Source: Amphiura filiformis
Lineage: Eukaryota; Echinodermata; Ophiuroidea; Amphilepidida; Amphiuridae
Direction: 5' to 3'
Length of the DNA: 64,000 bases
Assembly: GCF_039555335.1 (NCBI RefSeq)
Contig: NC_092641.1
Location: 31,370,848-31,434,847 of the forward strand
The position numbers and the translations under genes were made by a program. The notes below the pieces were generated by a model, which searched no databases, was not told the DNA's origin, and saw only the letters and a program-made list of their open reading frames with translations. Shown piece by piece: positions 43,731 through 64,000 of the stretch (position 1 is its first letter; each line of letters begins with the position of its first letter).

Positions 43731-43809
43731 CTAGTTTTGCAAGGTAATGACAGGAGCGTTTATTCTTCTCTCGACCTCGGCACAGTATTTCTCTGGCACA
43801 CCGGCTTCC
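43731..43809 (-). CDS. CFAP45: CFAP45 exon 10, C-terminus
   Basis: On the minus strand the acceptor is ATTCTTAATACAG, phase 2 in. REAGVPEKYCAEVERRINA, then VITLQN and TAG (43731-43733). The PEKYC motif marks the CFAP45 C-terminus. Confidence 0.95.
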
Positions 43810-46800
43810 CTGTATTAAGAATGAAAAAGAGGATAAGGAGGATTTAGAAGATTTTTTTTGCAAAAGTACCTTGTTTATATGGATATGCACTGATGGAAAC
43901 ATTATAGGCAAACAAATCTACATTTTAGTCATTGGATTGCGTTTCATGCCACTGACGAGCTGTACACAAAATTCCTGTTGAAATCCATACACCCCCTGTA
44001 GAAGACATGATTTTAATCGTCCACACAGGGAGTGTGTATTTCAAATGGGGTAACCTGAATGAGTGAATCCATTTGAAATCTACACCCCCTGTGCGGGGTA
44101 GATTAAGGTCATGTCTCACATACGGATTAGCCCAACCATTGTGTCTTTGTGCTGCTGAGGCTGAGCCTTAGGCTATCTATAAAGATGCAGTTATTCATTT
44201 GTCATGGACATATGGACATAAGTCTTTGTGCTACTGAGCCCTGAGCGATCTAGATGCAGTCATTCAAAGGGCAGCTCATGGGCATATGTCTTTGTGGCTG
44301 ATGAACATTGTGTCTTTGTGCTGCTGAGATTGAGTCCTATAAAGATGCAGTCATTCATTTGTCATGGACATAAGTCTTTGTGCTACTGAGCGCTGAAAGA
44401 TCTAGATGCAGTCATTCATAGGACAGCTCATGGACATGTGTCTTTGTGGCTGATGAACATTGTGTCTTTGTGCCATTGAGGCTGAGCCCTAGGCTATCTA
44501 GATGCAGGCCATCATTTGACATGGACATAAGTCTTTGTGCCACTGAGCCTGAGCAATCTAGATACAGTCATTCATAGGGCAACTCCAGGACATTGTGTCT
44601 TTGTGGCTGATGAACATTGTGTCTTTGTGCTGCTGAGATTGAGTCCTATAAAGATGCAGTCATTCATTTGTCATGGACATAAGTCTTTGTGCTACTGAGT
44701 GCTGAAAGATCTAGATGCAGTCATTCATAGGACAGCTCATGGACATGTGTCTTTGTGGCTGATGAACATTGTGTATTTGTGCCATTGAGGCTGAGCCCTA
44801 GGCTATCTAGATGCAGGCCATCATTTGACATGGACATAAGTCTTTGTGCCACTGAGCCTGAGCAATCTAGATACAGTCATTCATAGGGCAACTCCAGGAC
44901 ATTGTGTCTTTGTGGCTGATGAACATTGTGTCTTTGTGCTGCTGAGATTGAGTCCTATAAAGATGCAGTCATTCATTTGTCATGGACATAAGTCTTTGTG
45001 CTACTGAGCGCTGAAAGATCTAGATGCAGTCATTCATAGGACAGCTCATGAACATATGTCTTTGTGGATGATGAACATTGTGTCTTTGTGCTGCTGAGGC
45101 CGAGTCCTAGGCTATCTAAAAAGATGCAGTCATTCATTTCTCATGGACATTAAGTCTTTGTGCCACTGACCCCTGAACGATCTAGATGCAGTCATTCATA
45201 GGGCAGCTCAAGGACATGTGTCTTCGTGCCAATGAGCCCTGGGTTATCTAAATGCAATCATTCATATGGCACCTAATAGACATGTCTTTGTGCTGCTGTA
45301 CCGTGGGCTATCTATATGCAATCATTCATGTACGTAATGGAGATACGTCTTTCTGCTGCTAAGTGAGTCATCGATAAGAATAGTCAATAAAAACATTTCT
45401 CTTTTACATTTATCTTACCTGAGTTCTTTTAATTTCTTGCCCTTGATGTTATCCAATCTAGCTCTCCTTGCATTAGCCTCCTCTTTAATCTTCACACCCT
45501 CCTCGAAGAAAGCATTCCTCTCGCCGACCTTCAGCTGTTCCTTCTGACGTATCTGCTTGCGCACATCTTCTGCGTGGTCAAGACGCTTGTAGTGCTGATC
45601 CGCTTCCTCTCCTTTTTCTTTGTCCATGGCTTCTAGCTGCGCTCTGTGATTAATGTCAAATGTAGATGATTAGAATTAAAGCGGAGTGGAAACATTGATT
45701 GATGTGATCATTATTAAGTTTTCTAACAAAACATATTTTCAATGCTAGACCTGGACAGTACCAACAGCTATCACACTAATATACACATGTATTTTTTAGC
45801 TATTTATGACATAGATCTTCTTTTCTTTATCAAATTTTTCAAAAGGGGGGTGCACCAAATTGACCAATTCAGCATCCAAACGATGAAAGTCCAAACCTTC
45901 TCACGCAGCACAAAATAATTTGAAAGATTAATTTAAGACCGATATTCAACTTCATTATATCCAAAATTAATTAGTGGTAGGCCCTATTTGTGCAAATTTG
46001 TGTGCGCTCCATGCGCAATTGTTTCAAGGATGGGGGAAGGGGCACCATTATGTATCCTTGCCTCCTTGGGGTGCCATTATGTATCCTTAGCCCTTGGCGC
46101 CATCACCCCTAGCTATGCCACTGACAAAGTGACCTAACTCTGATATCTACCATAAACAGTAGCGCTTTCGGAATAGGTAAAAAGCGCCATACAGACTGAA
46201 ATATGACTTACTCCAAGACTCGTTCAAACTCTGCTCTCTCCCTCTGAGCCTCCACAGACATGAAGTGTTCCTTGTTGCGGACTTGGACCTCACGTGCGAT
46301 CTTCAACATCTGCTCTGTCTCCGCCTTCTTGACGGCATCTTCCTTCTCTTTCTGTCTCCATTCACGTTCTCGTTGCTCCTGGTTACGCTTAGCTCGGAGG
46401 GCATCTTTCTCGGCTTGGTAATCCTTGGCTCGTTCCTGTCACATTGCAAAAAATAAAATAATTATTGTAAAATCATCAGTATTGTTTCCAGTTGATCCCT
46501 TGTTTCTTCCCTTTTCTTTTTACTAGACTTGTTTCATCTTCTTGGCACTAAAAAATCAAATACGGATAGTGATCTGAAATATTGACCTAAATTCCATTTG
46601 AACTCCATACACCCCATATGGAAGACATGACCTTAATCTCCCAAACAGGAAATCTAAACTCCTTGTGTGGGAGATTAAAGTCATGTCTCTCATATATGGG
46701 GGTGTATTGGATTTCAACTGGAATAGCCCCAATGTGTATACATGTACATGGTTTGCATAAACAAAATTTGTGCAAAAATTGTTCAACTCAAAATCTCTGC

Positions 46801-49800
46801 ATGCCTCTTTAACATTTTTCAATCAACATTAGGCTGTAAAAAATTACCTTTTGGTTCTTGTCCCCTCCTAACTGAATTTCTGGGACTAGTCAGATTGTTT
46901 ATTTAGATTTTTCAAAAAAATTAAGACTTTGGAATACTTGAAAACTTTATACAGATAAATATGTTCACTAGAGAACACAGATCACTTTTGTGTCTTTTCA
47001 TTGGTACTCTAGGGTTTTATCCTCAGAATTTCACATTGGTAAAAAAAGAAAAAGGGTCTCCTCATTTTCCTCAAGCTTTTTGACAAAGACCAAAAACTGC
47101 TAACAATGCCAATTTTACATTGAAAAAAAAAACTCCCTCCCTGATCAATTCATGAAAATCCTTTGGACGAAAACCAAAAAAATAACAAAAAAAATTGTAT
47201 GTTGCATTACTAACCTGTTGTGCCCTGAGTCGAGCAATTTCTTTTTCCTTTTCAATTTTGATCTTCTCTTGTTCGGCTTCAAAGGCAGCTTCTCTGGAAG
47301 CCTTCTGCTTCATGTACTCGTTCACTTTGAGATCGGCAAGCTGCTCTTGTTCTTCTTTACGTTTCTTCATATGTTCCGCTTCCTCGTTGGCACGGGCAAT
47401 CTCAGCTTGTGCTTCCAGGGTCATGATGTGCTTTTTCTTCAAGTCCTGTTGTTTGTGTTTGAGATAGATAACAAAAATCAGGTAAGTCAGGTAATTTAGG
47501 TTTAATTACTGTTATTTGAGTTAGTCGTGTATGTGTGTAACAGTTGATCATTCATAGACATATGTGTAACAATTGATCATTCATAGACACAGCCCTCGAA
47601 TTAAGGATCTGAAGGGGCACGGCAACTTTTTTAGGGCAAGTTGACAATTGCCTTGGATTTCCATTGAAAAGGCGAGGCAGCACGGCAATTTGTAATATTT
47701 CAAAAGGGCATCACGGCAACTGTTTAAAATTTGAGAAGGGCACCAAGGCAATTTCTCAAAAGTAAAGAAAACTCACGTTAGCAATCATGATAGATGATTT
47801 TAGTGCTTATCGAACATTGGTCTTAATATTGAAGTTCGCAAGTATACAATGCGGAAAGAATTGGGGAATTCCCTTTTATTTCAGTCTGTAGCTATATCGA
47901 TTTGGATTAGGTTTATACTTGTGTGCAGGGTATACCAGAATTATTCTGTCCTTTCTAACACCAAAGGTTAAGGTATTTTCCTTAAAAAATGGCAAAATAT
48001 AAATATGCAAATTAGCTCATTATAATATATGTAAATGCTACATCAGCATCCCCTGGACATCATCAGCTATCACCACATGCATTAATCATAAAGTCATTAT
48101 AGTCTACTCTACTGATGAGCTTAATCATGTTCGCAAATATTTTGATATGAATGTAGGCCTATACTACAAAACAGGTTTCCTTATTTGGTAAAATATGCAA
48201 ATTAGCTCATTGAAATATTTAGTGACTATGACTGAATGCACTAAAAATATATTTTTAATTCAATGATATAACACAATAGATTTGAAGTTGTTTTACTCCA
48301 CCAGAAAATGATTTTGGGCAAAAAAAACAATTTAACACCATGGAATTTATAATCATGTCTAAGTGAGGGTATATATATGAATCCAACAGATATAAGAATT
48401 AATTCGAAAATGTTCAGAAATCAAATAATCAAATTATCTTAATTAGGCATAGTGTCCTTTCAAAAAGGTCATGGAAGGGAAAATAATAAATGTAAACAGT
48501 TAGAAAGTCAGCAAAAGTGACCTTGAGCTTAGCATAGGTCATAGGTGTCCCTTCAAAAGGTCATAGAAGGGGAAATAAATGTACATAGAAGTCGGCAAGA
48601 CTCATCACAAAGGAGTGCACAAAGGGGTTGTCGGCAAAACTGTCTTCGGAGGTCAGCTTTGAGTTTAGCATAGGTGTCCCTTCAAAAGGTCACATAGAGG
48701 GGGAAATAAATGTAAATACAAGTCGGCAAGGACCTTAGAACTCATCACAAAGGAGTTCACAATGGAGTGGTCGGCAAAGTCCTTTGAGGTGCAGGGCACC
48801 GACGGCAACTTCTTTAGAGGGCACGGCAAGTGACTGCCGTCGGTAAAGGACATATTTTGAGGGCATTGCGGCAGTGGGGTTGGGCACCCATGCCGTCGGT
48901 GCCGTGGGTTAATTCGAGGGCTGCATAGACATATGTGTATGCTGACTCGCTGAGTGTATATCCATATCAAAAGAATGCACTTGTCAGCTGCCACTTGTTT
49001 CTCTTTTTGCCTAATAGCTAGGAATAAATACCAGACTCATCGCAATTGGAGGTCACTTCAAATCATCCCCAAGTCACATGGCTTAGGAATGGTCTCAGTA
49101 TTCCTAACCCATGTGACTTGGGGATGATTTGAAATGACCTCCATCCACATAAAATGAGTCTGGTTTTTATTCATTTAGAACAACCATTATGTAAAAAGAG
49201 ACACATGTAGCAGCTGACAAGTGCATCCTTTTGATATGGATGTACACATACATCAGTACCGTACCATAACTGTATTTCCTAAATAGCTAAAGTAAATTCA
49301 ATGATTTAAAAGGAAGTTTCAAATTCAATATATATATCCTTGCAAGTAATCAAAGGAACCAAATTAAACAAAAGTTTTCAATACTTATGTGGTCTACGCT
49401 GTGCCTTGAGCGTATACACATATAGAAGTGATAAACAATCACGCTGATTGGCTGATCAACAGTCATGACAACAAGACGGTTGATCCATCGGTCATCGTCG
49501 CATAGAAAGGAAGGAGACCTCTTTCATGCGATCGATCATCACCATCATGCACGCAGACCACAAAAGTATTAAATAGTTTACCAATTTCTCAGAAGCACCC
49601 CGTATATGCTTCAGTCTTTATGATAACAACAAATAAATACGATACTAACCTCAAGATCTTCTCTTTGTAATTTTTCTAAATATTTCAGCCTCTGTAAAGC
49701 TTCCTGGTCTTTGCGTTCTTGATCTAGCGCCCTCTCTTCTTCACGCTGAGCAATTTGATTGAGAACCTTGGATGCACCTCTGTAAATGAAAAGTAAAAGA

Positions 49801-52800
49801 TATTAGGCTATTTCTGTTGAAATCCATACACCCCTATTGAAGACATTACCTTAATCTCCCACACAGTGGGTGTAGATGGAATCACACATTCAGGTAATCC
49901 TATTTGAAATTCACACTCCCTGTGTAGAAGATTAAGGTCATGTCTGCCATATGAAATGTGTGGATTTAAACAGGAATAGCTCATATTGTATGATCCAAAC
50001 AGCCCCTTATACCAAGATATGCATGGAAACTGTAAAATGCTTTCAAAAGTTTGCAATCACTTTTTTCCATGTTTATTATCTTGAGCTTGACCGTACAAGC
50101 AAACACAGATAACAAAACAAAATATTAAATTCTTGATTGATCTTTGTAACCAGGGAGCACCAAGACTAGTGTTCACTGAACTCTACCATCCTAACCCGTA
50201 TTCCTAACCAAGAGTGAAAATAAGAGCTTTTTTACCAGGACTCAGTTTGGGAAAAAAGTAAGTCCTGGTTCTTTTGAATTTAGTCAGAACGACTAGGATT
50301 CACTTTAGTCTAAACAGGACTCACATTTTTTTACTAACACTCATAAAGTCAAAATGTTCTAATATATATCCAATGGCACAATTCAATAGTAAAATTGCTC
50401 CAAAAACAAAATGTACAGTCTACAGAAAAAAAACTTGACTTACTCATATCTTTCTCTTTTCCTTTCATTTTCAATTTCTTCCTGTAATTCCAGCGCCCTC
50501 TGCCTTTCTAATTCCATCATGATGTCTAATCTTTTCTCTTCTTCTTGATATTCATCCTTGATCATGCCTTTCTCTAACATTTGAGCATCACGGATGGCAT
50601 GACATTTAGCATTTAACATGAGCTGTGTACAAAAGAAGTAAAAACAAAAGGTTATAATGACATCATAAAAGGTTGTCTCAGCATACTGAACATTATAGTC
50701 CACAGAGAATGAGAGACTTTCCTCAGATTATGCATATTCATCATGCAGCAAGTCAACCTGATTCTAGTAAACTCAGGCTTGTATCGAGTCAGGATTATTT
50801 GGGACATGTTGGAGCTAAAAAGTGGACCTTTAATGAATTTTCCTTCAAAAAAAGGGCTGGCTGATTTTAACATGGTTACATGGACCTTTTTGATTTTCCC
50901 TTTCAAAAAATGGCTGAATGTCAACAGTTTTTACAGGAGGAGGGTTGCATACCTGATACCTCCTATGGCTTTGAGCAAGATAGTTGAGAATCAATTATGA
51001 TTCAGTAAAGTTTGATGAAATTGCATCCCTGGTGGTTATTTTCTAACAACTCCCCAGTTACACCTAGGTGTGGCGAGGCATGTGCAGGTAAAGAGGTAAG
51101 TCTGGGGGTTTGTTCAGTCAGTTCAAATAGCTATCGATGTAGCCAGGTAAGTAGGTAAGTAAAACACTGTATCTGTAAATATACACATAGCACAGTCTCA
51201 GTGCTCCCATAAATAAAAAACTAAAAAATACAAAACTACATGTCCAAAATTTAGCCCTGAAAATATAAACCACACCTGTGGATTCTGGGGGTTCAATCAG
51301 TTCATATATTAATGTAGCCTTGATTTATTAGTCTGGTCTTGCTTTGAGTTCAGAGAACTTATTCAAGCACTGTTTTTAGAATTTAGCAGATGTGTATATT
51401 CATATCAAACTGATGCACTTCGTGGCTGCTACATGTGTCTCTTAATTGAACATAGCTTGGAATAAATACCAGACTCATCTCAAGTGGATGTTAACATCAT
51501 ATCATCCCAAAGTCACATGGTTTAGGAATACAGAGATCATTCCTAAACCATGTGACATTAGAATGATTTGAAGTGACTGCTACTTGAGATGAGTCTGGTA
51601 TTTATTCCTAGTTATTATGTAAAAAGAGACATAATTATGTAGCAGCTGATAAGTGCATCGTTTTGATATGGATGTACACATATGTCACAGGCATTGATTT
51701 TGCCTGTCCCAGGAGCAAACTGTCCGTCCAAAATGACAGGTGGGTGGGCGGCTAGCAAACATCCTGACAACATTTTTACTTGGAAGCAAGATAAAACACT
51801 TACTTCATTGAGATGTTTGATTTCATCCTCCTGTTCCTCCCTCTGTTCTTTAGCTTTCTGTAAGAGATACTCTGCCTTCTCTCGCGCCTCTTCCTCAAGA
51901 TCATTCAGCTTTTCATTCTTTTGTCGAGTTCTATCCAGTGATTGCATCTGTAGTTTAAGTTCATTACTCTTTTCCTGTGGCAAATAATAACAATTAATTA
52001 CATTATAAAAATAAAATATGATCAAATTGGACCCTATATTAACCCCATGAGAACTACCTGCCGATTGGCAAAAATGAGTATTGTGCCCAATTTTGAACCA
52101 ATCAAGGAACGTAATTAATAAGATCATCTGCAAATGCAAGTTTGACCATAAATAGTTTAAAGCCTAGTTATAATTGGCAATTGAAATTGAAATGAGCATT
52201 TCAAGTTATCAACCAATCAGAAATGCTGTTAGATGACCAGTATATTTGAACTCACCTCAGCGGCTTTCTTCATCTTTTGCATCTCTGCAATCTCTGCCAC
52301 ACGTTCTTCTGATGAAAGCACCCTAGATGCATATAAGATTCTCTGGAATTCATTAGTAGGTAAGACCACTGACTGACCTGAAGGATCTTCACGAGGAACT
52401 CTGAAATGAAGACAAAACATTGTTTGACATTAGTTTAGCTCCCTCCCAATCGACAAAGACTCATGGAAGCAAACCAGATGGATTAGAGAAGCAATGTGGA
52501 TCAGAAAACTGGGGGCCAACGTTATCAACCGCGATGAAGGGACATACTCACTCAATCATTGTTTGACATATATTGTAAGTTGGTTGTCAGAATTTCTCAA
52601 TATTGTAGTTTGCAAGTAGAGCGAATTAAAAAGACTAGTTTGCGAATGACATCCTGTCAATCGGACCAAAAATGCAGTACTGCGCAGGTCAGCAACAAAT
52701 CACGCCATGCCTTTGCCCTTATCAGAGGTGTAAGCGAGGTAACGCATCCACTCCCTGAAAAACATGCGAGCCAAAGGCGAGCACCTCGCCAAATTTCCGG

Positions 52801-55800
52801 AAGTGCACGGGGACTTGTCCGGCGAATAGGCTGCAGGGTATCACCCCCTCAAAAATTTTTTCCAAAATCATCCAATCCCGAAATGTAAAAAAAAAAAAAC
52901 CATTTATGTCTTATGTCAGACACAAACTAGTCTTTTTAAATTTGGTCTTCAATTATAGTTGAGACAGGAAAAATGGACGCAATACAAGCAATGAAATATT
53001 GGGACAAAATGGGGTATAAAATTATGGCGTGTATGTTTCTTCCAGAACGGATAGGAATATCCGGTATTCCGGGTCATTCCATAGGTTGACTGGCGGTGTG
53101 TATTCTCAGATGTGGGCATCACCAGGGTCTGGTGCCATGAAGTGAGTACATGGTGTTGTCATATCGATTTTACTGCTCAAGAATAAAGCTTGGTCAGATT
53201 GAAACAAAATGCACATTTTCACATGTTAGTCCTGAGCCAGTGGTCATTTGGGAGTCCATAGATGGGACTAAGTTGCAATTTTGTCTCATTTGGAAAATTT
53301 GGCCAAGATGCCACATTGCCACTGTTTCAAGTTTCTATCAAACCATAGAACTTGCCATTTAACTGAAATCAAAACTGGTTCACAAACAAAAATTCCAAGC
53401 TTGCTTCACCAGTACAGATATAAATAATGCACAAAAAAGTATCCCCTTGTACAAATGTATTAAAACTTTACAACATATCATGTTGCAACTAACAAAATTT
53501 GCAGTTTATTTGGATTTTAATTATTTCCAATTAACTGTGCTCAAATTTACAACCACACATTTTTTATGTGTTTTTATAAATGAAGAGCTTTGTTGCAAAA
53601 CCCCTTACATCCACTTCTTGCCCAATTTTGAAAACACATAAAAAATCACTGATATACTTGTAAGGGGGTTTTCAACAAAAGCAAGTTTTGGCGGGATGCT
53701 TGGGTAGAATGAGCATCCCGCCAAAAACTGCTTTTGTTGGAAACCCCTTACAAGTATTTTGTTGATGATTTTCTGATGTGTTCTCAAAATTGGGCAAGTG
53801 GATGTAAGGGGTTTTGCAACAAAGCTCTTCAAATGCATCCCCAAGAGTTATTTCTGAAGTTGAATATTTTTATCTTTTATTTCACTCTTGCAAATTCATT
53901 TTTTTAATCTTGAAAATTTTACCCAGACTTACATTAAATTTCTAATTAAATCCTTTGTAATAACTTGTATTTCTTTCTTCTCTTTCCTTTTGCTATTTTT
54001 TGCTGATGATGAGGGCGACCCTCTCTGTGTATTGACAACTTCCTGTGTTGGTGAGTTCTGCGCTCTAGATCTAGCTGCTCTATTTGGTTCCCCGAATAGA
54101 GATTCATCTACATTGGACGTCTTGCTGACTGTGTAGTACTGTCTAGTCTTGGCACGGCGGGCGGATGAAGTGCTGCTGCCCGCAGAGTCCATACTTAAAA
54201 CACTTCTTGGCTATAGAAAGAAGAGGGAAAAATCGAATCAATGTGTAAATATGTGTTATATTGTGTACAGTGGTGCCACGTACCAGGGGAAGCATTAATT
54301 CCAAGGGTCTCAGTCAAAATACGAAATCGGGAAAATGTCCACTTTTTATGGCAAATTTTAGGCAAATTTGCCTAAATTTTTTTACAGATTTTTGCCCTTG
54401 CCTTGCCTGTTATTTCTGGTACTGCCAGTGTGAGTGTTGGTAAAACCAATGCCAGGCTTTTTGCTGATTTTAATTTAGATAGTGAGTACCGGTAGCACTA
54501 ATACCATGGCATGATGACAGTACGTACTGCAATGGTCATTATTATGTTGGGGAATAATGTACGGTAATGCAAGTACATGTAGGCTTAGATTACAGCATCT
54601 TCATGATGTTTTACGAGACTATTAATGAGTGATCAGCTTTGTTTTACTTTCCAATTTGTCAATGATTACAGCTCACAGTCACAGCTCTATCCTCAATCAG
54701 TTAATGAGTTTTTTTTTTGGCTACCTATCATTGGACCAATGTAAGGTTTGTTTGTAGTTGACAACAAGTTTAACCTTGTGGAGAAAGTTTAATTTGATAA
54801 ATTAGTAATTTTAACCTTATCGGATGGTCTAAAAGTCAGGATCCCCACTGGAAATATGGTGATCTTTTCTTTTAGACCACCCGAGCTATATAAGGTTAAA
54901 ACTACGAATTTATCAAATTAAACTTTCGCATCAAGGTTAAACATGTTCTTAGCTATACAAACATACCTTTTATTTCGTCTAACAAGTTTCATTTTGTTCC
55001 AAAATCCATGTTTTTATCGCAATTTTTGACGTAAAAGAGCGGAATACAAAACCGGACTCCAAAACTTTCGTGCAGCACGAGCGCTTGTTGTACGCTTCGT
55101 TCTGACGGTGATTTACGCTCGCGTATCAAGCATTTTCAAGCGTGTTTGACAGTAATTTACTGCATGACGCAATTGTACATTTATTCAAGATGGCGAATTT
55201 CTCCAAAACACAATGTAATTTACTTTGAAAAAATCCCTCATTTCACAAATTCTTTGCATCTTTCCACTCATCTGATCATCTTTTTATGTGACGGAAGTTA
55301 TGCTGATTTTATGAAGGTATGTTTCTTGCTTTTCCGATAATTTTTTTATTGTGTTTTGAGACAAAAACTTCCATAGCAGAATAGCTGTTTTCACTTGTTT
55401 TCAAAAAGTTGTTTTAATCTTGTTTTTTACCCCATAATTTCCCTCATTTATCGAAGCCCTGCCCTCCTTCCAATACATTAAACCTTGACTTCAAAGTGTT
55501 TGGCAACTGTTTAACCTTGATGCAAAATTAAACCTTGATGCAAAAGTAATAATTTAGTCCCTATATAGCGAGGGTGGTCTAAAGGAAAAGATCGCTGGAA
55601 CTATCTCAAATTGAGTCAGAATCAGTGTCAAGCATTATATCATACAATGGAAAGTACCGGTAAATAAAACCGATCACTACAGGTACCGGGGTATAGCACC
55701 CGAAAAAGTTGCTCTGTCAAATGACACGTCGGCGAATTGTTAGCATCTAGTTTTAAATAGAAAACTCTGAAGATATACAGGTATGTCATCAAAATAAATT

Positions 55801-58327
55801 TTGGTAACATTAAACTTCACACAGAATTGTTTTAATGTTTTGGAAAATTAGTGAAGTAGATATCGTCCCACATTATCTCAATCCACTCACTCTATCGGAC
55901 CATGGCGTTGGAGTTGTCGTGGTCAGTACATGAGTCATGAGACTGATGAGTAGGCCTATAGACTAGTATATTATTAAACGTAGGCCCAATAGATCTCTTG
56001 ATCAAAAATACATTTATGTATAAGGGCACACATGCCATGCATGAGTGTGCTGTAAATGCACTTCATTTTCCACCCCCGTAAAATTTCAAAATGCCACAAC
56101 ATCAAACATGCCAAAAATTTCCCCCAGCTTTTGTCATGTTTGTCCCCACCACCCCTGAACCCTAGTCCGAATAATCAGACCCAGAACAAAATATTAATTT
56201 CTGACATGATCCTGTACTGGGTCTGAACTGTTTCCATATGAAATCTTGATGTAGGTCGTGCGCAATGAATTGGGGGCCAAATGCGTTACATACTAAAAAA
56301 TTGAACAATTTGCATGTTTTTGTACTTAGACTGATCTAATTCATAAACTGTTCATCAAAACCCTATAAAATTATATATCACTGTAAAGCTTAGGGTATCA
56401 GGGATACACATGTACAAACAATTGGTCAATATACAGGGTGCCACAAATGTCATATAGGGTGGAAAAGTTAAATTTTGGTTCAAAAAGTATACAATTTTGT
56501 TCCTCTCTTATTTACTAGCAAAAATTCCTGTTCTGCTGAAACCTTTTTAGATGTGCTAATAACATTGTAGGCTTCCAAAAAAAGCAAACTTGTAATGATG
56601 AGTTATGTTGCCCAACTGAGATACAGGGTGTTCAAAAGTCGTACATAATTTTTATGATTTTTATTACATAATCAATCAAAACTTTTTTTCCTTCATGACC
56701 TACACAAAAACCAATGGCATATTTGAATTCCTCATCAAATTTCCATCCAAAAAATATAAACATTTACAGCAGTAGGGTAACTCCTTCAAGAAATATGACC
56801 TTTGGAACATTTCGGAGCATAAATGAATACTTAACACAGTAGCATTATAGGAAAAGCCTAGAACCCATGACACAGAATGCAGCACACTTGCAACAAATTA
56901 ACTTAGCTTGGAGTAAAACTGGTCACATTTCAAACTAGACATAAATACCAAAACAATGGTACATAATCCATCTCAATACCTTACTGGGTTATGAAGTTAC
57001 AGTAAAAAATATATTTGTGAGGCGCTAAAAATCAATATTCCCTATACTTTAACACATGCCTCAACCGTAGGATCCTCAACCGTAGGATCCTCCACCCCTG
57101 ACTTCACATCATTTGAACTGCAATATCTCAAGAAGTAAATAAAGTGTGGTGTTCTTTCTTTCCACAATTTGAGCTAGATAAATAAGCAACAAAATGAGAC
57201 CAAAACTAGTTCAGTACCCCTCTCCATTCTTGAGATCTAGGACAAAACGTCCTGAATAAAATGAAAAAATGTAACGCCTCCACCTTTTCCAATACCCCAA
57301 TTCATGACGCACGACCTGTAGGTATCCTAGGTGAATTCAAATTTGCCATCAAATTGCATCGTTTTATATATCAAATTAAAGCCCTTGAGTAAACTAAGCC
57401 AAAACTGAAAACCTTTTTTTTCATAGCACTTTCCGTAGCAAAGTTACATCTTGTCAAAGATTGACTTTCATCAAAAAAGATTCAGCTAGCAAAATTCCCC
57501 AAAAGCGGCATTTCGGGGTGTTTCTAGATCTTAGTCTCATGGCGATGGCAGCTTTTTTAATGGAACTGCTATCAAAATCCCTCTAAAATTCCATGTGCGA
57601 CTTGATTATCACCATAAAAAATCATATATTTGGGTCAAGTGAAGTATAGAAAACATATTTATGTAGGTTTCCTTCACCCACCTATTCTCGAAAAAAATTC
57701 AAATTTCTATGTAAATATGCATTGTGTTGGGGCCCCGGTCTCGGCGAATTAGCTGACTAGTAAATGTGTTAACTAAGGTTTGCCTAGGTTACCTACTTGA
57801 TGGCAAATTGGACAATAGAAGCACATGGATCTACGTGACAGCTTTTTAATCCCTATTCATGTTACGTGAATCACGCTATTGTGGACCATCCTTCTGATAC
57901 TTGAGTGTTTGGACAAGCGGGATGGTCTTTTGTCTACCTCTCTGTTTGTAAACAAACCAGGAGGTCGAAATCGTCCTCCTCGCCGAATACGCAAGTCGGC
58001 GTAATAGTACGGCACTACCCTGAACCTTGCCCAATTTTTGGGAATGAGATCCCAAAAAGATATTAAAATAATAACTTTACACAACCACAAGTGGACTCAG
58101 TTCAATGTATAAAGCAATAAAACAATGAAAAGCATTCATTTTTGGTAAGCTTAAAAATGAAAAATCTCTTGCAGATTTGCACACACAAACATTTCATGAT
58201 TTGAATTTTGAAACATAACAATTACAATAATCTGATTTTAATCATTCAAATTCAAAACTAGGCCAGAAATTAAACTTTTGTAGATCAAGTAGATTTATGG
58301 GTTGTCTACTAACAAGTAACTTACCAT
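43731..58327 (-). CDS. CFAP45: CFAP45 (CCDC19), complete, ten coding exons
   Basis: The exons join in phase to about 554 residues (human protein 551). The order matches the family: MPRS start, VDESLFG, a QVITKDLI segment, VPREDPSG, then almost continuous charged coiled coil with NAKCHAIRDAQ, FEAEQEKIKIEKEKEIARLR and a conserved end, PEKYCAEVERR. The known role is a filamentous inner-lumen protein of the ciliary doublet A-tubule, needed for normal beating. There are no catalytic or membrane features. It is head to head with MRPL39 and convergent with TTC3. Its nine introns carry many MITEs but the coding sequence is intact. Confidence 0.97.
43971..44134. mobile_element. Palindromic MITE, family A copy 9
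   Basis: Starts TTCCTGTTGAAATCCATACA; the right end is cut short (CACATACGGATTAGCCCA). In the last CFAP45 intron. Confidence 0.75.
44140..45350. repeat. ~155-bp tandem array with higher-order structure
   Basis: Units start at GAACATTGTGTCTTTGTG near 44303, 44455, 44612, 44763, 44921 and 45073. Two unit types alternate (CTGCTGAGATTGAGTCCT and CCATTGAGGCTGAGCCCT), giving a ~309-bp higher-order period. Each unit holds two related half-units (GATGCAGTCATTCAT...). The edges are more worn than the middle. It occupies most of the last CFAP45 intron. Confidence 0.9.
45419..45643 (-). CDS. CFAP45: CFAP45 exon 9
   Basis: Phase 2 in and 2 out, donor GTAAGATA. AQLEAMDKEKGEEADQHYKR continues to NAFFEEGVKIKEEANARRAR, a highly charged coiled coil that aligns with the ATFEEGRRLKEEA region of vertebrate CFAP45. 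Confidence 0.95.
45644..46211. other. CFAP45 intron, worn repeat end
   Basis: Near 46080-46125 the text CATCACCCCTAGCTATGCCACTG resembles the right end of a hAT-type element such as 394-766; the left end is not clear. Confidence 0.35.
46212..46435 (-). CDS. CFAP45: CFAP45 exon 8
   Basis: Phase 0 in and 2 out, donor GTAAGTCA. ERAKDYQAEKDALRAKRNQE and REWRQKEKEDAVKKAE match the family closely. A plus-strand open frame here is only the shadow. Confidence 0.96.
46591..46732. mobile_element. Palindromic MITE, family A copy 10 (internally deleted)
   Basis: 142 bp: ATTCCATTTGAACTCCATAC at the left and TTTCAACTGGAATAGCCCCA at the right, with part of the centre missing. Confidence 0.8.
47215..47445 (-). 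CDS. CFAP45: CFAP45 exon 7
   Basis: 77 codons, phase 0 to 0, acceptor ACAAACAACAG, donor GTTAGTAA. LKKKHIMTLEAQAEIARANE and AAFEAEQEKIKIEKEKEIAR. Confidence 0.96.
47590..48923. mobile_element. hAT-type non-autonomous element, 1.3 kb, with perfect 8-bp target duplication
   Basis: It starts CAGCCCTCGAATTAA and ends with the exact inverse TTAATTCGAGGGCTG. CATAGACA is present on both sides (47582-47589 and 48924-48931). Subterminal GGCACGGCAACTT-type repeats occur near both ends. Around 48480-48790 a GTCATAGAAGGGGAAATAAA-type block is repeated about three times. No transposase frame. Confidence 0.9.
48957..49244. mobile_element. Palindromic ~290-bp MITE (family G) copy 1
   Basis: TATATCCATATCAAAAGAAT is mirrored by CCTTTTGATATGGATGTACA. 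The inner arms share AATAAATACCAGACTCAT and CCAAGTCACATGG. Confidence 0.8.
49650..49779 (-). CDS. CFAP45: CFAP45 exon 6
   Basis: Phase 2 in and 0 out, donor GTTAGTAT. GASKVLNQIAQREEERALDQ then LKYLEKLQREDLE. Confidence 0.95.
49805..49983. mobile_element. Palindromic MITE, family A copy 11
   Basis: Starts AGGCTATTTCTGTTGAAATC and ends TTTAAACAGGAATAGCTCA, 25 bp upstream of exon 6 on the minus strand. Confidence 0.78.
50444..50622 (-). CDS. CFAP45: CFAP45 exon 5
   Basis: Phase 0 in and 2 out, donor GTAAGTCA. LMLNAKCHAIRDAQMLEKGM, the most conserved stretch of the family, then EEEKRLDIMMELERQRALEL. Confidence 0.97.
50623..51394. other. CFAP45 intron, nothing clear
   Basis: No recognised repeat before family G copy 2 at 51395. 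GGTAAGTAGGTAAGTAAAAC (about 51144) is simple sequence. Confidence 0.35.
51395..51675. mobile_element. Palindromic MITE (family G) copy 2
   Basis: Starts TATATTCATATCAAACTGAT and ends TTTTGATATGGATGTACA. It shares ACCAGACTCATCTCAAGTGG with its own right arm and with copy 1. Confidence 0.8.
51804..51974 (-). CDS. CFAP45: CFAP45 exon 4
   Basis: 57 codons, phase 0 to 0, acceptor ATTTGCCACAG, donor GTAAGTGT. EKSNELKLQMQSLDRTRQKN then LNDLEEEAREKAEYLLQKA. Confidence 0.96.
52256..52400 (-). CDS. CFAP45: CFAP45 exon 3
   Basis: Phase 2 in and 0 out, acceptor TCTTCATTTCAG, donor GTGAGTTC. VPREDPSGQSVVLPTNEFQR, matching the VPTEDPSG region of vertebrate CFAP45. Confidence 0.97.
52624..52942. mobile_element. 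Candidate inverted-end element with GC-rich interior
   Basis: AATTAAAAAGACTAGTTTG is mirrored by CAAACTAGTCTTTTTAAATT. The interior is GC-rich and open for 109 codons on the plus strand with no recognisable protein. Confidence 0.5.
53581..53831. mobile_element. Palindromic element in CFAP45 intron
   Basis: TGAAGAGCTTTGTTGCAAAA and its inverse end the element. Inner arms GGCGGGATGCTTG / GAGCATCCCGCC flank a tiny loop. It would fold into one long hairpin in the pre-mRNA. Confidence 0.8.
53933..54210 (-). CDS. CFAP45: CFAP45 exon 2
   Basis: Acceptor CTTCTTTCTATAG, donor GTAAGTCT, phase 0 in and 2 out. It begins PRSVLSMDSAGSSTSSARRA and includes VDESLFG and QVITKDLIRNL. The internal Met at 54192 could start translation alone, but the PRS residues join in frame to the ATG of exon 1 and resemble the MPLS start of the vertebrate protein. 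Confidence 0.93.
54769..54941. repeat. Inverted repeat in CFAP45 intron 1
   Basis: TTTAACCTTGTGGAGAAAGT is mirrored by CTTTCGCATCAAGGTTAAA. A related partial block (TTTAACCTTGATGCAAAATT, GGTGGTCTAAAGGAAAAGAT) recurs at about 55509-55592. Confidence 0.6.
55600..57290. other. CFAP45 intron 1, nothing coding
   Basis: ATACAGGGTGCCACAAATG (56433) and ATACAGGGTGTTCAAAAGTC (56622) look like mariner-type ends. A short tandem CAACCGTAGGATCCT is at 57063-57092. No gene. Confidence 0.4.
58325..58327 (-). CDS. CFAP45: CFAP45 exon 1: start codon only
   Basis: The minus strand reads ATAAAAATG, then the donor GTAAGTTA. The ATG is the last codon of the exon, so coding resumes at 54210. In frame upstream there is a TAA eight codons earlier, so no longer N-terminus is possible. 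Joined to exon 2 the protein begins MPRSVLSMDSAG. A five-codon upstream ORF (ATG at 58358, stop at 58341) would lie in the leader if transcription starts above it. Confidence 0.85.
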
Positions 58328-58432
58328 TTTTATAAGTTGTTTATTGCGTTGTTATCATGAAATTGTTTCTTTTTTTCGCCTTTCCCTTCTGTTGATCTCT
58401 GTGTTGTCACTGCTTTTCGCTTCATCACCTAT

Positions 58433-58444
58433 CTCGCATGCGCA
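58433..58444 (-). promoter_or_regulatory. NRF-1-like site
   Basis: The minus strand reads TGCGCATGCGAG, one mismatch from the consensus YGCGCAYGCGCR. NRF-1 sites are common in promoters of mitochondrial genes and in bidirectional promoters, which suits MRPL39. Confidence 0.55.
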
Positions 58445-58461
58445 TAATTATTTACATGCCC

Positions 58462-58475
58462 GTCTCCTTGGCGAC
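58462..58475. promoter_or_regulatory. RFX X-box candidate
   Basis: GTCTCCTTGGCGAC fits RYYNYY-N2-RRNRAC, and so does its reverse complement GTCGCCAAGGAGAC. It is about 135 bp above the CFAP45 start codon, the usual position for X-boxes of cilia genes controlled by RFX factors. Confidence 0.65.
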
Positions 58476-58527
58476 CAGGGCGGAACCTTCCCATCATACA
58501 TCACGAATATGATGTCAAAGGTCATCC

Positions 58528-58533
58528 CACGTG
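58528..58533. promoter_or_regulatory. CACGTG E-box
   Basis: A perfect palindromic CACGTG about 100 bp above the MRPL39 ATG. It is short, so chance occurrence cannot be excluded. Confidence 0.35.
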
Positions 58534-58632
58534 AGGTATCAAAATTCGGAAGTATTTCACCGAGTGCAGCGCACGATAAGAAAAACATAGTTTTTCATGA
58601 ATTTATGCCATTAGCGAAGTTAAATAGTGAAC

Positions 58633-58681
58633 ATGAGGTTAATAAGGTTATCTGAATCGGTCATCCGCAGGACATGCCGTT
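58633..58681 (+). CDS. MRPL39: MRPL39 exon 1, targeting peptide
   Basis: ATG at 58633, an in-frame TAA four codons upstream, strong donor GTAAGTAA at 58682, phase 1 out, as exon 2 requires. The peptide has six Arg in 16 residues. Confidence 0.85.
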
Positions 58682-61600
58682 GTAAGTAACTAAAGGCTAA
58701 GTAGTTTTATACCCTTTTGTTGACGTTTTTAGTCGTACGTAGGTAAGGTAAGCTTACTTGTTACATTACAGTTTGCACACAATTTGTACATACATGTATT
58801 GACATTGTATCATGAATTTGATGATCAGACAAACCATGCAAACCTTAGTTAACACATTTGCTAGTCAGCCAAATTGACCCAAGAATCCCACATGGAATTT
58901 TAGAGGGTCCGATTTTGATAGCAATTTCATATCAACATCAAATTGATCAATTCATATTGGCTGGACTTAGCCCTAGAACTCTGGCCATAGTATCCGTTTT
59001 TACTTCCACTAGGGCCAGAGGCACTTACATTGAAAAATTTGTTGGAGATGCTTGAACGATCCAGTACAAAAAATCAATGCTTGATCGAACCAATACAAAT
59101 GTGTGTCAGGTCACTAATTAACATGATAAAACCCACTTGAGAACACACAATCGCCAGTCATTTCTAAAGACGCATTTATACTCAATCGCTTTTGCAGAAA
59201 TCTGAATCGCACGCATGATCAGTGTACTAAATCGCCGTCGTATTTGCCTGCTGAGCATGCGCATAAATCGCTGTTTTTCAAAAGCGACACGTAGGCCTAT
59301 ATTGACACCCTCTGTCGGTCAAGGATTCAGTCTGATGATGAGCAACCCATGGGTATAAACACAGCTTTACACAATGACTAATTTACATAGGCACAAAAGA
59401 CCGTGTTCATGTACGTTACTCAGCCAAACATGGCAGAGTAGGTCCCGGATGACGGTACATGTTCCTATCTCCTCAATGTTATACCTTTCCAACAAGGAAA
59501 GAGATACGAAAAGCGAACGTCTAGCTGGACTCGGAAGAGTCGAGTATAGAAGCCAAGCTTGTGCGGGGGTAAAGCTGCTTATTGTTGTTGTACTTGAATA
59601 CTTGTAGGCTGCTTGCTTGAACGGTGGTTTCTTTTAGACTGTTCCAGTCGGTAATGGTTCGGGGGAAAAATTAGTTTTTGTGGCACTGGATGCGAGTTTG
59701 GTGGTGAATGAAACTTTTTGTATTATTGCGGCGAGAAAGCCGGGTAACTGGCGTAAGGTAACGGTCACTGGGGATGTCTATCTCATCATGGACGATCTTC
59801 TACATCATGGACTTGTAAGCGGGCTGTTTTTCTTCTCTCCTCCATCCAGTGACTGCCATCCAAGGTCGTTGAGGAAAGTTGTTACAGTTCCTTTAGTACG
59901 CTCAAAGTTGGATCTATATGATATTATTGTAGGCATACCTTAAATTTAACACATTTGGCATTTGCTACATGTAGTCAGCCAAATTCACCTAGAACACAAT
60001 ACATATAGAAATACATCTACAGGTAGGTCAAGGAAACCTACATAAATATGTTGTCTAGATACTTCACTTGACCCAATATGATTTTTTATCCATGGTGATG
60101 ATGAGACACTCGCACATGGAATTTTAGAGGGATTTTGATAGCAGTTCCACATAGTCATAGAAAAGCTGCTATCATCATGAGACTAAGATCTAGAAACACC
60201 ACCGAAATGCTGTTTTGTTAGCTGAATCTTTTTGATGAAAGTCAATCTTTGTATACATGTATCTGCTACGGAAAGTGCTACGACAAAAAGGTTTTCAGTT
60301 TTGGCTTTCTTTACTCAAGGGCTTTAATTTGATATATAAAATGATGCAGTTTGATGGCAAATTTGAATTCACCTAGCATACCTACATATTGAAAATCTGC
60401 TCTATCTAGATTAAATATTTCATATCTGTTAATAGGTCGCATGTCATAAGTTGGGTACAATTTCCATTACATGGTCAAAAATTACAAAAAATGAATTTTT
60501 TGATATGTTAAGGGAAGGGGTATGAACGTTTGGACAGTATTTATTGTGGGACATTAGAGCACATCAGACATATCGAATTGCATTATGAATATGAAGAATG
60601 GCCTTCTGATATCAAATAATTTTGATTTTTTGAAATTCGCAATGTAATACGTTTATGGCAAATCATTAAAATTGATATTTTTGATATTTAACAGTACTCG
60701 AAGTAAACTTTATAAATCTGACAATTTCTACCTAAAGTGTACGTAGGTGGGATGAAAAGCCGACGATCAATTGAAAATTTTGACCTTTCGTAGTGAAGAT
60801 ATGGATTTTTTCCCAAAACACACAAAAAAATAGGTCTTTTGGGAAAAAAATCGATATCTTCAAAATAAAAAGTCAAAATTTTCAATTGATCGTCGGCTTT
60901 TCATCACAGCTACATACACTTTAAGACTATATCATTAAATTTATAAAATTTACTTCGAGGACTGTTATATCTCCAAAATGTTTAAAATATCAAATTTTAA
61001 TAATTTGTCATAAAATTTGTATTATATCGTGAATTTCATAAATGAAAATTATTTGATATCAGAAAGACATTCTTCGTATTCAGAATGCAATTCGATAGGT
61101 CTGATGTGCTCTCATGTCCCACAAAAATGCTGTCAAACGCTCAAAACGCTCATTCCAGTTCCCTTAACATGTTGTATATTGACAATCTCTAATAATTAAC
61201 ACCATTTTTAACCTTAACATGTGCTTATTTTTTGAGATAATGCTTAATTACTAATTAATTACAGGCATCTATGTAAATCTCAAATTTCAAATGTGTTTTT
61301 CTCAAATCGGACCTCAATTACAAAAATGACTGTAAATTTTTTATTTTATGCAATTGCAAGAATGTCATCAGATTTGGAGGATATGTTCTCAATACATGAA
61401 TGCTTCAAATGAACTATTTAAAATAATTGTACGTACATGTTAATTACATTGTGAAGGTCAATGACCTTTTTACGAGTAATTAGCGAGATGGTTATTCTAT
61501 TATTGAGGAAATGAATATCAAGAAGAGAAATATACATTAGCATATTGCTGAAAATACTGAAATTCAACTAGGATTTCATTAAAAATGAAAAAAAATGGAA

Positions 61601-64000
61601 CATAATACCCTTTAAGGTGGTACTACACACCTTGATAAATTTGTGACTATTTTTGCATTTTTCTCAAAAAATAATATCACACTGGTAACAAAAGTTATGT
61701 ATATTATAGGGGTAAGGAATTCAGTTACTACACTGGAATTTCAGTAACTCAAGACAAGGGGTTCATTATGTTAAGAAATGAGGTACATTTTAGCGGTACC
61801 TCTTTTCTTATCATAAATAACTTACCGCTTATCTTGAGTTACTGAAATTCCAGTGTAGTAACTGGATTCCTTTACCAGTGTGTAGTTACTTTTTGAGAAA
61901 AATGCAAAATTAGTCACAAAATTTATCAGGGGGTGTAGTACCACATTAAAGTAGTCAGTAATTGTTTTAGTTGTACAAATTCAACATTCAAAGCTGTCAA
62001 TACATCATACCCTCCCTAGATTTGAAAAAGTAACCAGTAGTTTTGACATGCTGGCGTGTGAATTTTCATATAGGCCCTATTGCACACTCCCGCATCCGCC
62101 TGCTCCACATCCGCCCTGCTCCTCCACCTCTGGCATTTTTCATTTCAACTGATGTGATTTTTTTACTGAATATGAATAATGTATAATTATATGCTTCAGT
62201 AGACTGAAAGAGTATAATATTAGGCTTAAAATGAGGTATCAACCACTGCTGTAGGATCAAATTTGTATCACATTTTTCAGAAAAGTGTAATCCCTCCACC
62301 CTTTTAGCATACCCAACTTATGACATGCGACCGTTAATGTTTTTATTTGTTTTGCACAGTTTGCATCAAGTCATGTTTTGGCTGAACATTTTTGACAAAA
62401 GTCAATCTTTGACAAGATGTAAGTTGTAACTTTGTTACAGAAAGCGGTATGATTTTAACATTCCCCTCAGAAAAGGAGACATTTTTGTTGATGGAGTCAG
62501 TGGCATATCAAGGAGGGTATGTGCTGTGGGCACCATCTCAAGGAGGTGTGAAATTTACAGAGCAGATATTTTCGTTATCTTTTATAAAAGAAATTCAATT
62601 GACTTTTTCTATTAATTGCAGGTTTTTCATCAGACCAAACAGCCGTCAGTTCAGCAATATCCGTAACACAGAAACAGAATGAAGTGTTTGACAGAGAAAA
62701 AGAGCGCCAGTTGTCACTGGTCAAAGCTATCGAGAAGGTACACGTCAAACATCTAGGCACTGAGGACGAATGTTCATTGATGATGAATAAATACCTCTCC
62801 ACACCATATCATGTTGCTATGCGTAAGTGATTTATAAAATCTGTTTGAATCTCTATAGACCTGTCTCTCTGTGTGTCTGTTCTCTCATTTTCTGTCTCTC
62901 TCCCCTATATCCCCCTCCTCCTCTTATGATGCGATCTGGTCCTTGGAGGCCAAAAGAGGTATATTTTCTTGTAACACGTTTGACATTAGGCTTAATATAC
63001 CGTACTGAAAACACCAACGATCTAGCATATACTTGGTACTCAAGTTATAAATGAAGTTTTGTGATGTAAATGTATTTTATTGTTTTTTACTTTGGTCTTT
63101 ATCTCAATTTAGAATTTGCCACCTTTGGCCTGTATGGACCAGATCATATGTGACCATCCACCACAAAGTGGTAGTAAAGTCGGCTCTAGATCATTTTCTG
63201 TTTATTGCAGATATTGAAAGAATGCACTTTCAGCTTTAAAATGACACCTCAACCAGCTTCATCGGACATCTGGAAGTGAAGTTATGGTGCATCAAAGGTC
63301 AAATTCCTAATATATTTTAGAAATCCAATACTGTTTTTGATTGTATCTCAAAATGGAAAATGCCGACTTTACGACCAGTTTGTGGTGGATGGGCACATAT
63401 AGTCTCTTCCTCTTTCCCTCCTCTCTTTCTTTCTGTCTCCCTCCATCTTCATCTCTCTCTGGCTCTACGTTTATGCTCTCTTTGATTATGCACAATGTCA
63501 AATGTAAATGAATGATTTTAGGATTCAACTCCAATAATGTTCAACTCAATGTAGTGTTGACTGCAGTCTTCCTAGTTTTAAAATGCATAAACTGGGTAAT
63601 TTGAAATGTCAGGAGACAGCTTGCTATTGTAAGCATCCAGCCATATACATGTTTAATTGCTTTATGGAAATTTTGGTGACTTTCTTAGCTTCTTTCTTTT
63701 TCTTCCTTAACTGCGTTTTAAGGGCCTTCTTGGCTGAGACTGTAAATTATTTTCCTGGCTTGTGCATCTTGTATATATGGGCTAAGTGTGTTTTTCACAG
63801 AAAAGATTCGAAGCTGCTATATAGCATGTGTCCTTGCGGACCAACCATAAAACCAACAAACAACCATATAGCAGAAGCCAGTGGTTCATTGTGGCACAGC
63901 TAGTGTGCTGGCACATGCTACTACAGCAATTACATGAAGATTGTGACCTCAGGTTTGCACTTATCATTTCAGATTTAGGAGAGCCTTACTGTAAGCATTC
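58633..64000 (+). CDS. MRPL39: MRPL39, mitochondrial large-subunit ribosomal protein mL39, 3'-truncated by window edge
   Basis: Exons 58633-58681, 62622-62822 and 63973-64000+ join in phase. The first 16 residues are Arg-rich without acidic clusters (MRLIRLSESVIRRTCR), a mitochondrial targeting peptide, followed by CFSSD, which resembles a processing site. The body reads FDREKERQLSLVKAIEKVHV, then MNKYLSTPYHVAM and HLGEPYCKHS. This aligns with FNKEKARQLSL, MNKNISTPYSCAM and HLSEWYCRKS of human MRPL39, the TGS-like N-terminal region shared with threonyl-tRNA synthetases. The protein acts in the mitochondrial matrix as part of the 39S subunit. About three quarters of the gene lies beyond the window. 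Confidence 0.92.
60508..61167. mobile_element. TTAA palindrome, family B full copy (opposite orientation)
   Basis: Starts TTAAGGGAAGGGGTATGAAC and ends GCTCATTCCAGTTCCCTTAA, 660 bp. The core is CAATTGAAAATTTTGACC with its inverse around 60830. Confidence 0.85.
61612..61949. mobile_element. TTAA-bounded palindromic MITE (family H)
   Basis: TTAAGGTGGTACTACACACC at the left and the inverse of TTAATGTGGTACTACACCCC at the right. The inner arms share TACTACACTGGAATTTCAGT. 338 bp, non-coding. Confidence 0.88.
62622..62822 (+). CDS. MRPL39: MRPL39 exon 2
   Basis: Acceptor TTAATTGCAG, donor GTAAGTGA, phase 1 in and 1 out. FSSDQTAVSSAISVTQKQNE then EKERQLSLVKAIEKVHVKHL. Confidence 0.95.
62930..63405. 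repeat. Inverted repeats in MRPL39 intron 2
   Basis: TATGTGACCATCCACCACAA (63147) faces TTTGTGGTGGATGGGCACAT (63378), with GTAAAGTCGGC / GCCGACTTTAC inside. CTGGTCCTTGGAGGCCAAAA (62937) faces TTTGGCCTGTATGGACCAGA (63124). The first theme also occurs at 38636-38903. Confidence 0.6.
63973..64000 (+). CDS. MRPL39: MRPL39 exon 3, start only
   Basis: Acceptor TTATCATTTCAG; the first two bases complete a His codon, then LGEPYCKHS to the window edge. It matches HLSEWYCRKS of human MRPL39. Confidence 0.9.

Follow-up and report, generated by a model that had tools for sequence, protein, structure and literature searches.

A motile-cilia gene and a mitochondrial ribosomal protein gene probably share one short promoter in Amphiura filiformis

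When a ciliary gene and a mitochondrial gene begin almost back to back, does the DNA between them serve both, and if so, are the two genes driven together or apart? The question is raised by a locus of the brittle star Amphiura filiformis, in which CFAP45, a motile-cilia gene on the minus strand, and MRPL39, the gene of the mitochondrial ribosomal protein mL39 on the plus strand, lie head to head. We analysed this locus within a stretch of 64,000 nucleotides of contig NC_092641.1 (positions 31,370,848 to 31,434,847; hereafter the window). Our analysis suggests that CFAP45 and MRPL39 probably share one promoter, and on balance we favour reading the interval between their start codons as a single bidirectional promoter of an ordinary sort, whose two outputs are controlled separately.

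The identity of CFAP45 is established by homology and splicing. All nine of its introns (9/9) are bounded by a GT donor and an AG acceptor, and the encoded protein carries the Pfam domain TPH (PF13868, E 3.2e-80). Among solved structures, the closest chain is 8snb_3W (671.8 bits over 519 residues), followed by 8i7r_U (397.6 bits); counted on the alignment match lines, 363 of 519 query residues are identical in the former and 250 of 520 in the latter. The structure 8snb is from a sea urchin, Strongylocentrotus purpuratus, and 8i7r is from mouse, a pattern of similarity that points to an echinoderm, though to no close relative of this urchin. An intron of 4,114 bp (54211-58324) separates the start codon from exon 2, whose acceptor (ctatag followed by CCAAGA, at 54210) gives an in-frame junction reading M-PRSVLSMDSAG, and on the minus strand between 54211 and 60000 this start codon is the only ATG directly followed by GTRAG. 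The resulting N terminus, MPRSVLS, aligns with that of 8snb_3W (MPHSVIS) from the first residue of each onward. A start at the inner ATG of exon 2 (MDSAG) was rejected because of this match in the preceding residues. The point is of use for annotation, as a gene finder confronted with a start codon isolated 4.1 kb from the next exon may wrongly choose the inner ATG.

MRPL39 is represented in the window by its first two coding exons and the start of its third, which together encode 92 residues. These matched mL39 chains at residues 19-91, and the best match improved from E 1.2e-10 to E 1.6e-15 when the piece of exon 3 was included; the short in-window part had no match in Pfam or NCBIfam. The leader encoded by exon 1 is rich in arginine, as mitochondrial leaders tend to be, and intron 1 spans 3,940 bp (58682-62621). 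These gene models bear out the initial annotation, which had named both genes, placed their start codons head to head across a 305-bp gap and described a strong donor right after each ATG (GTAAGT in both cases) ahead of a first intron of about 4 kb.

The interval itself is rich in CpG. Its content of guanine plus cytosine is 0.40, and it contains 15 CpG dinucleotides, with an observed-to-expected ratio of 1.24 against 0.51 window-wide; 3.5% of 305-bp tiles of the window attain this ratio. In these respects the locus resembles the bidirectional promoters of animals, which serve two unrelated protein genes that run from opposite strands and start less than 1 kb apart (here 305 bp between start codons), separated by a CpG-rich interval. 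About a tenth of human genes sit in close head-to-head pairs of this kind, and human CFAP45 and MRPL39 themselves lie on different chromosomes. The divergent promoter that had been proposed for the two genes is supported, by inference, by this arrangement. Cilium-related genes are found in such pairs, ICK being a ciliary example. Published cases include the bidirectional pairs EVC/EVC2, which has a cilium-related member (PMC3052239), and ICK/FBX9 (PMC2876993), and Cep290 in Xenopus, described as having a 'probable bidirectional promoter' (PMC5245798). The present locus differs from known pairs with a cilium-related member in that the partner of CFAP45 encodes a mitochondrial ribosomal protein, and a literature search that lacked most subscription journals found no printed case of a CFAP45/MRPL39 pair. 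The coordinates of the genes and motifs are collected in Table 1.

Table 1. Features of the CFAP45/MRPL39 locus, in window coordinates; shares are those of shuffled intervals with a match, as defined in the text
Feature	Position	Strand	Remarks
Interval separating the CFAP45 and MRPL39 start codons	58328..58632	.	305 bp; inferred bidirectional promoter
CFAP45	43731..58327	-	10 coding exons, 554 aa, open frame
CFAP45 exons	58327-58325, 54210-53933, 52400-52256, 51974-51804, 50622-50444, 49779-49650, 47445-47215, 46435-46212, 45643-45419, 43809-43731	-	
CFAP45 start codon ATG	58325..58327	-	sole coding triplet of exon 1, then donor GTAAGT
MRPL39 exon 1 (coding part)	58633..58681	+	MRLIRLSESVIRRTCR plus one base; ATG at 58633; donor GTAAGT; in-frame join to exon 2
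MRPL39 exon 2	62622..62822	+	similarity to mL39
MRPL39 exon 3 (start)	63973..64000	+	continues past window end
NRF-1-like site CTCGCATGCGCA	58433..58444	.	one mismatch to consensus YGCGCAYGCGCR
X-box, an imperfect palindrome: GTCTCCTTGGCGAC, read as GTCGCCAAGGAGAC on the minus strand	58462..58475	.	fits two of six published forms
GC-box-like GGGCGG	58478..58483	+	0.048 of shuffles
E-box CACGTG	58528..58533	.	0.058 of shuffles
ETS/GABP-like CGGAAGT	58547..58553	+	79 bp before MRPL39 ATG; 0.021 of shuffles

Of the motifs within the interval, the X-box, the NRF-1-like site and the E-box lie where the initial annotation had put them, whereas the ETS/GABP-like site is an addition to it. We tried 23 motif patterns, 13 with a match in the interval and 10 without. 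To gauge chance, we made 3000 dinucleotide-shuffled copies of the interval and give the share of these shuffles in which a pattern matched one or more times. Six X-box forms published in PMC2375033 and PMC10530576 were tested. The X-box fits the loosest of them, RYYNYYN1-3RRNRAC, on either strand, and its minus strand fits RYYVYYN1-3RRHRAC as well (0.185 of shuffles). It fails the other four (GYTNYYN1-3RRNRAC, GYTRYYN1-3RRHRAC, RTNRCCN1-3RGYAAC and GTNRCCN0-3RGYAAC) and therefore also the published form GYTDYY, which falls within GYTNYY.

The X-box is weak as a motif: the loosest form turns up in 0.276 of shuffles and in 27.1% of the tiles of the window. For the half-site on the minus strand, GTYGCCA, the share of shuffles is 0.074. 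With respect to a strict form, GTHNCCATRGNAAC, the site has two mismatches, against none in a site at 18563 and one in a site at 21763. Such numbers would be expected if the X-box were a chance match at which RFX is inactive. CFAP45 would then be governed from elsewhere, be it a distal element or a different site, and the interval would simply act as a housekeeping promoter of MRPL39 that fires both ways. A study in Drosophila points in the same direction, having found that an X-box upstream of the ATG does not alone predict RFX control, that such X-boxes are equally frequent at negative control genes and that conservation in a second species is the useful filter (PMC2375033). However, a symmetric pattern, GTNNCCNNRGNRAC, is found in 0.001 of shuffles and 0.014 of tiles, though it was devised after the site had been seen; across the 64-kb window, it has five matches in total over the two strands, at only three loci, against 0.60 expected, and none of 100 shuffles reached five. 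The placement of the site, 134 bp from the CFAP45 ATG and 157 bp from that of MRPL39 and hence nearly central, also suits a functional X-box, as functional X-boxes lie 100-250 bp ahead of the coding sequence in C. elegans (PMC2873420) and at most 500 bp from the start in human (PMC5838959). We regard a chance X-box as a possible but less likely explanation.

The locus is like RFX-regulated ciliary promoters in that a motile-cilia gene has, 134 bp ahead of its ATG, a palindrome resembling an RFX site; it is unlike them in that this putative site fails the tighter forms and is nearly as close to the MRPL39 start. Of the claim that the X-box is an RFX site, the location and the fit to two of six forms stand, whereas the failure of four forms and the frequency of the loosest one in shuffled intervals count against it. 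As a separate observation, X-box-like palindromes closer to GTHNCCATRGNAAC occur at 18563-18576 and 21763-21776, in the stretch after the TTC3/DZIP3-like exons described below.

NRF-1 and GABP (NRF-2) drive nuclear genes for mitochondrial proteins, and the letters of the interval, with a predicted NRF-1-like and a predicted ETS-like site ahead of the mitoribosomal gene MRPL39 and near its start, resemble those of such a promoter. The likeness is incomplete, as the NRF-1-like site is nearer to CFAP45 and the ETS-like site is without the leading C of the longer ETS/GABP form, CCGGAAGT, which was not found within the interval; two YY1 forms, a cAMP response element and an ERR form were also among the patterns without a match there. 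The NRF-1 core GCATGCGC is found in 0.010 of shuffles, CGCATGCGC in 0.002, AAAGGTCA in 0.014 and the FOX-like ATAAACA adjoining the CFAP45 start in 0.141. Across the whole window, NRF-1 sites with at most two mismatches number five against 3.57 expected, which is not above chance, and CACGTG occurs at two places against 4.9 expected. Because 23 patterns were tried, shares of 0.02-0.06 mean little singly. A count of 16 promoter-motif families, seven of them present in the interval (a number reached by 0 of 5000 shuffles and by 2 of 1045 window tiles, both overlapping the interval), was set aside as evidence, since it was not blind: several matches had already been seen, and the set includes the pattern written around the X-box. 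A second NRF-1-like site, TGAGCATGCGCA, with one mismatch, lies in MRPL39 intron 1 (59252-59263), 570 bp past the donor.

Under the ordinary bidirectional promoter that we favour, general factors acting at the NRF-1-like and ETS/GABP-like sites, and perhaps at the E-box and GC-box, would maintain the interval in an open state and, in most cells, drive MRPL39. Where cells bear motile cilia, a ciliary program would raise CFAP45, with FOXJ1 acting alongside RFX, the latter possibly bound to the imperfect X-box. Transcription of both genes would start within the interval, and the two outputs would have open chromatin in common, with no joint rise required. Work in Xenopus is consistent with such a scheme: CFAP45 is among the transcripts up-regulated by FOXJ1 and MCIDAS (PMC7606486), and multiciliated-cell genes, like housekeeping genes, are situated at domain boundaries with few flanking peaks (PMC5245798). 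Given this resemblance, it is to be expected that a ciliary gene will occasionally neighbour a housekeeping gene or share a promoter with one. At the starts of multiciliated-cell genes in several animals, no motifs are nearly as enriched as those of RFX (PMC5245798).

The position of the first exons bears on the same scheme. We compared the pyrimidine content ahead of each AG in the interval with that of nine real acceptors (eight of the nine of CFAP45 and one of MRPL39), which ranged from 0.41 to 0.94. On the CFAP45 side, the 11 AGs at 58368-58432 had values of 0.06-0.47, two of them reaching the lowest value of a real acceptor. Since pyrimidines are by this standard mostly scarce ahead of these AGs, which occupy the stretch from the X-box to the ATG, the ATG exon of CFAP45 is probably its first exon, with the transcription start near.

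Several points weigh against this reading of the interval. The X-box itself is overlapped by two AGs whose preceding tracts are acceptor-like (0.59 and 0.71), and on the MRPL39 side, where 10 AGs had values of 0.24-0.59, 8 of the 10 fall inside the range of real acceptors, so that a further upstream exon may exist, above all for MRPL39. There are also upstream ATGs, five ahead of CFAP45 (58358-58457, minus strand) and four ahead of MRPL39 (58509-58605, plus strand); among the latter, those at 58509, 58512 and 58605 share one frame, which overlaps the MRPL39 ATG out of frame and ends at 58655. Long leaders begun inside the interval would include these ATGs, and MRPL39 transcription may start close to its ATG, or leaky scanning may operate. 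Measured to the ATG, the NRF-1-like site is closer to CFAP45 (105 bp) than to MRPL39 (188 bp), a position that fits poorly with a simple assignment of NRF-1 to MRPL39, and with the X-box nearly central, the motif positions do not sort by gene. Finally, the main text of a paper on human RFX targets contains no occurrence of CFAP45, CCDC19 or 'bidirectional' (PMC5838959).

The two genes could instead be coupled, with RFX and NRF-1 acting on both from the shared interval and ciliary build-up raising mitochondrial translation in the same cells. Both motif types do lie in one 305-bp interval, less than 190 bp from either ATG, and either factor could serve either gene. However, one mitoribosome subunit among some eighty is not expected to set mitochondrial translation, and in the literature searched we found no paper naming CFAP45 together with MRPL39. 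An energy link is conceivable, as CFAP45 has been reported to bind adenosine monophosphate and to have a role in the homeostasis of adenine nucleotides in the axoneme, but a text search of the same paper found no occurrence of 'RFX', 'promoter' or 'mitochondri' (PMC7606486). We consider coupling improbable. Weaker still, and in our judgement very improbable, is the idea of a divergent promoter kept lineage-wide, at which RFX and NRF-1 would together determine the output of a mitoribosome subunit as well as that of a motile-cilia protein and tie the building of cilia in cis to mitochondrial capacity.

The window as a whole has the character of nuclear DNA from an animal whose introns are long. 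On the plus strand, at 6098-6382 and 14499-15965, lie exons of an E3 ligase gene resembling TTC3/DZIP3 (Pfam PF19179, E 3.9e-23; PF24812, wHTH_TTC3, E 5.4e-9). TTC3 and MRPL39 are both on human chromosome 21, and their proximity here may therefore be an old linkage. Scans of the window for tRNA genes and Rfam families gave no match in either case, and a Pfam search of 10 further open reading frames gave none over the cut-off; one weak match (E 0.07) scored 13.1 bits where 27 were required. When viral contigs were scanned with 152 CFAP45 residues, 21 stretches matched a pattern and none was confirmed as a relative. A scan of the window for bacterial promoters found three against 2.2 expected, a result without relevance to promoters of animals.

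In summary, the interval between CFAP45 and MRPL39 would, as it stands, be one more promoter common to a ciliary and a housekeeping gene, driving the latter in most cells and raising the former under a ciliary program. Should echinoderms in general turn out to keep both the pairing and its X-box, and should the two genes be induced jointly, the locus would instead link cilia to mitochondria in a simple way, encoded in cis and open to test with a two-way reporter.

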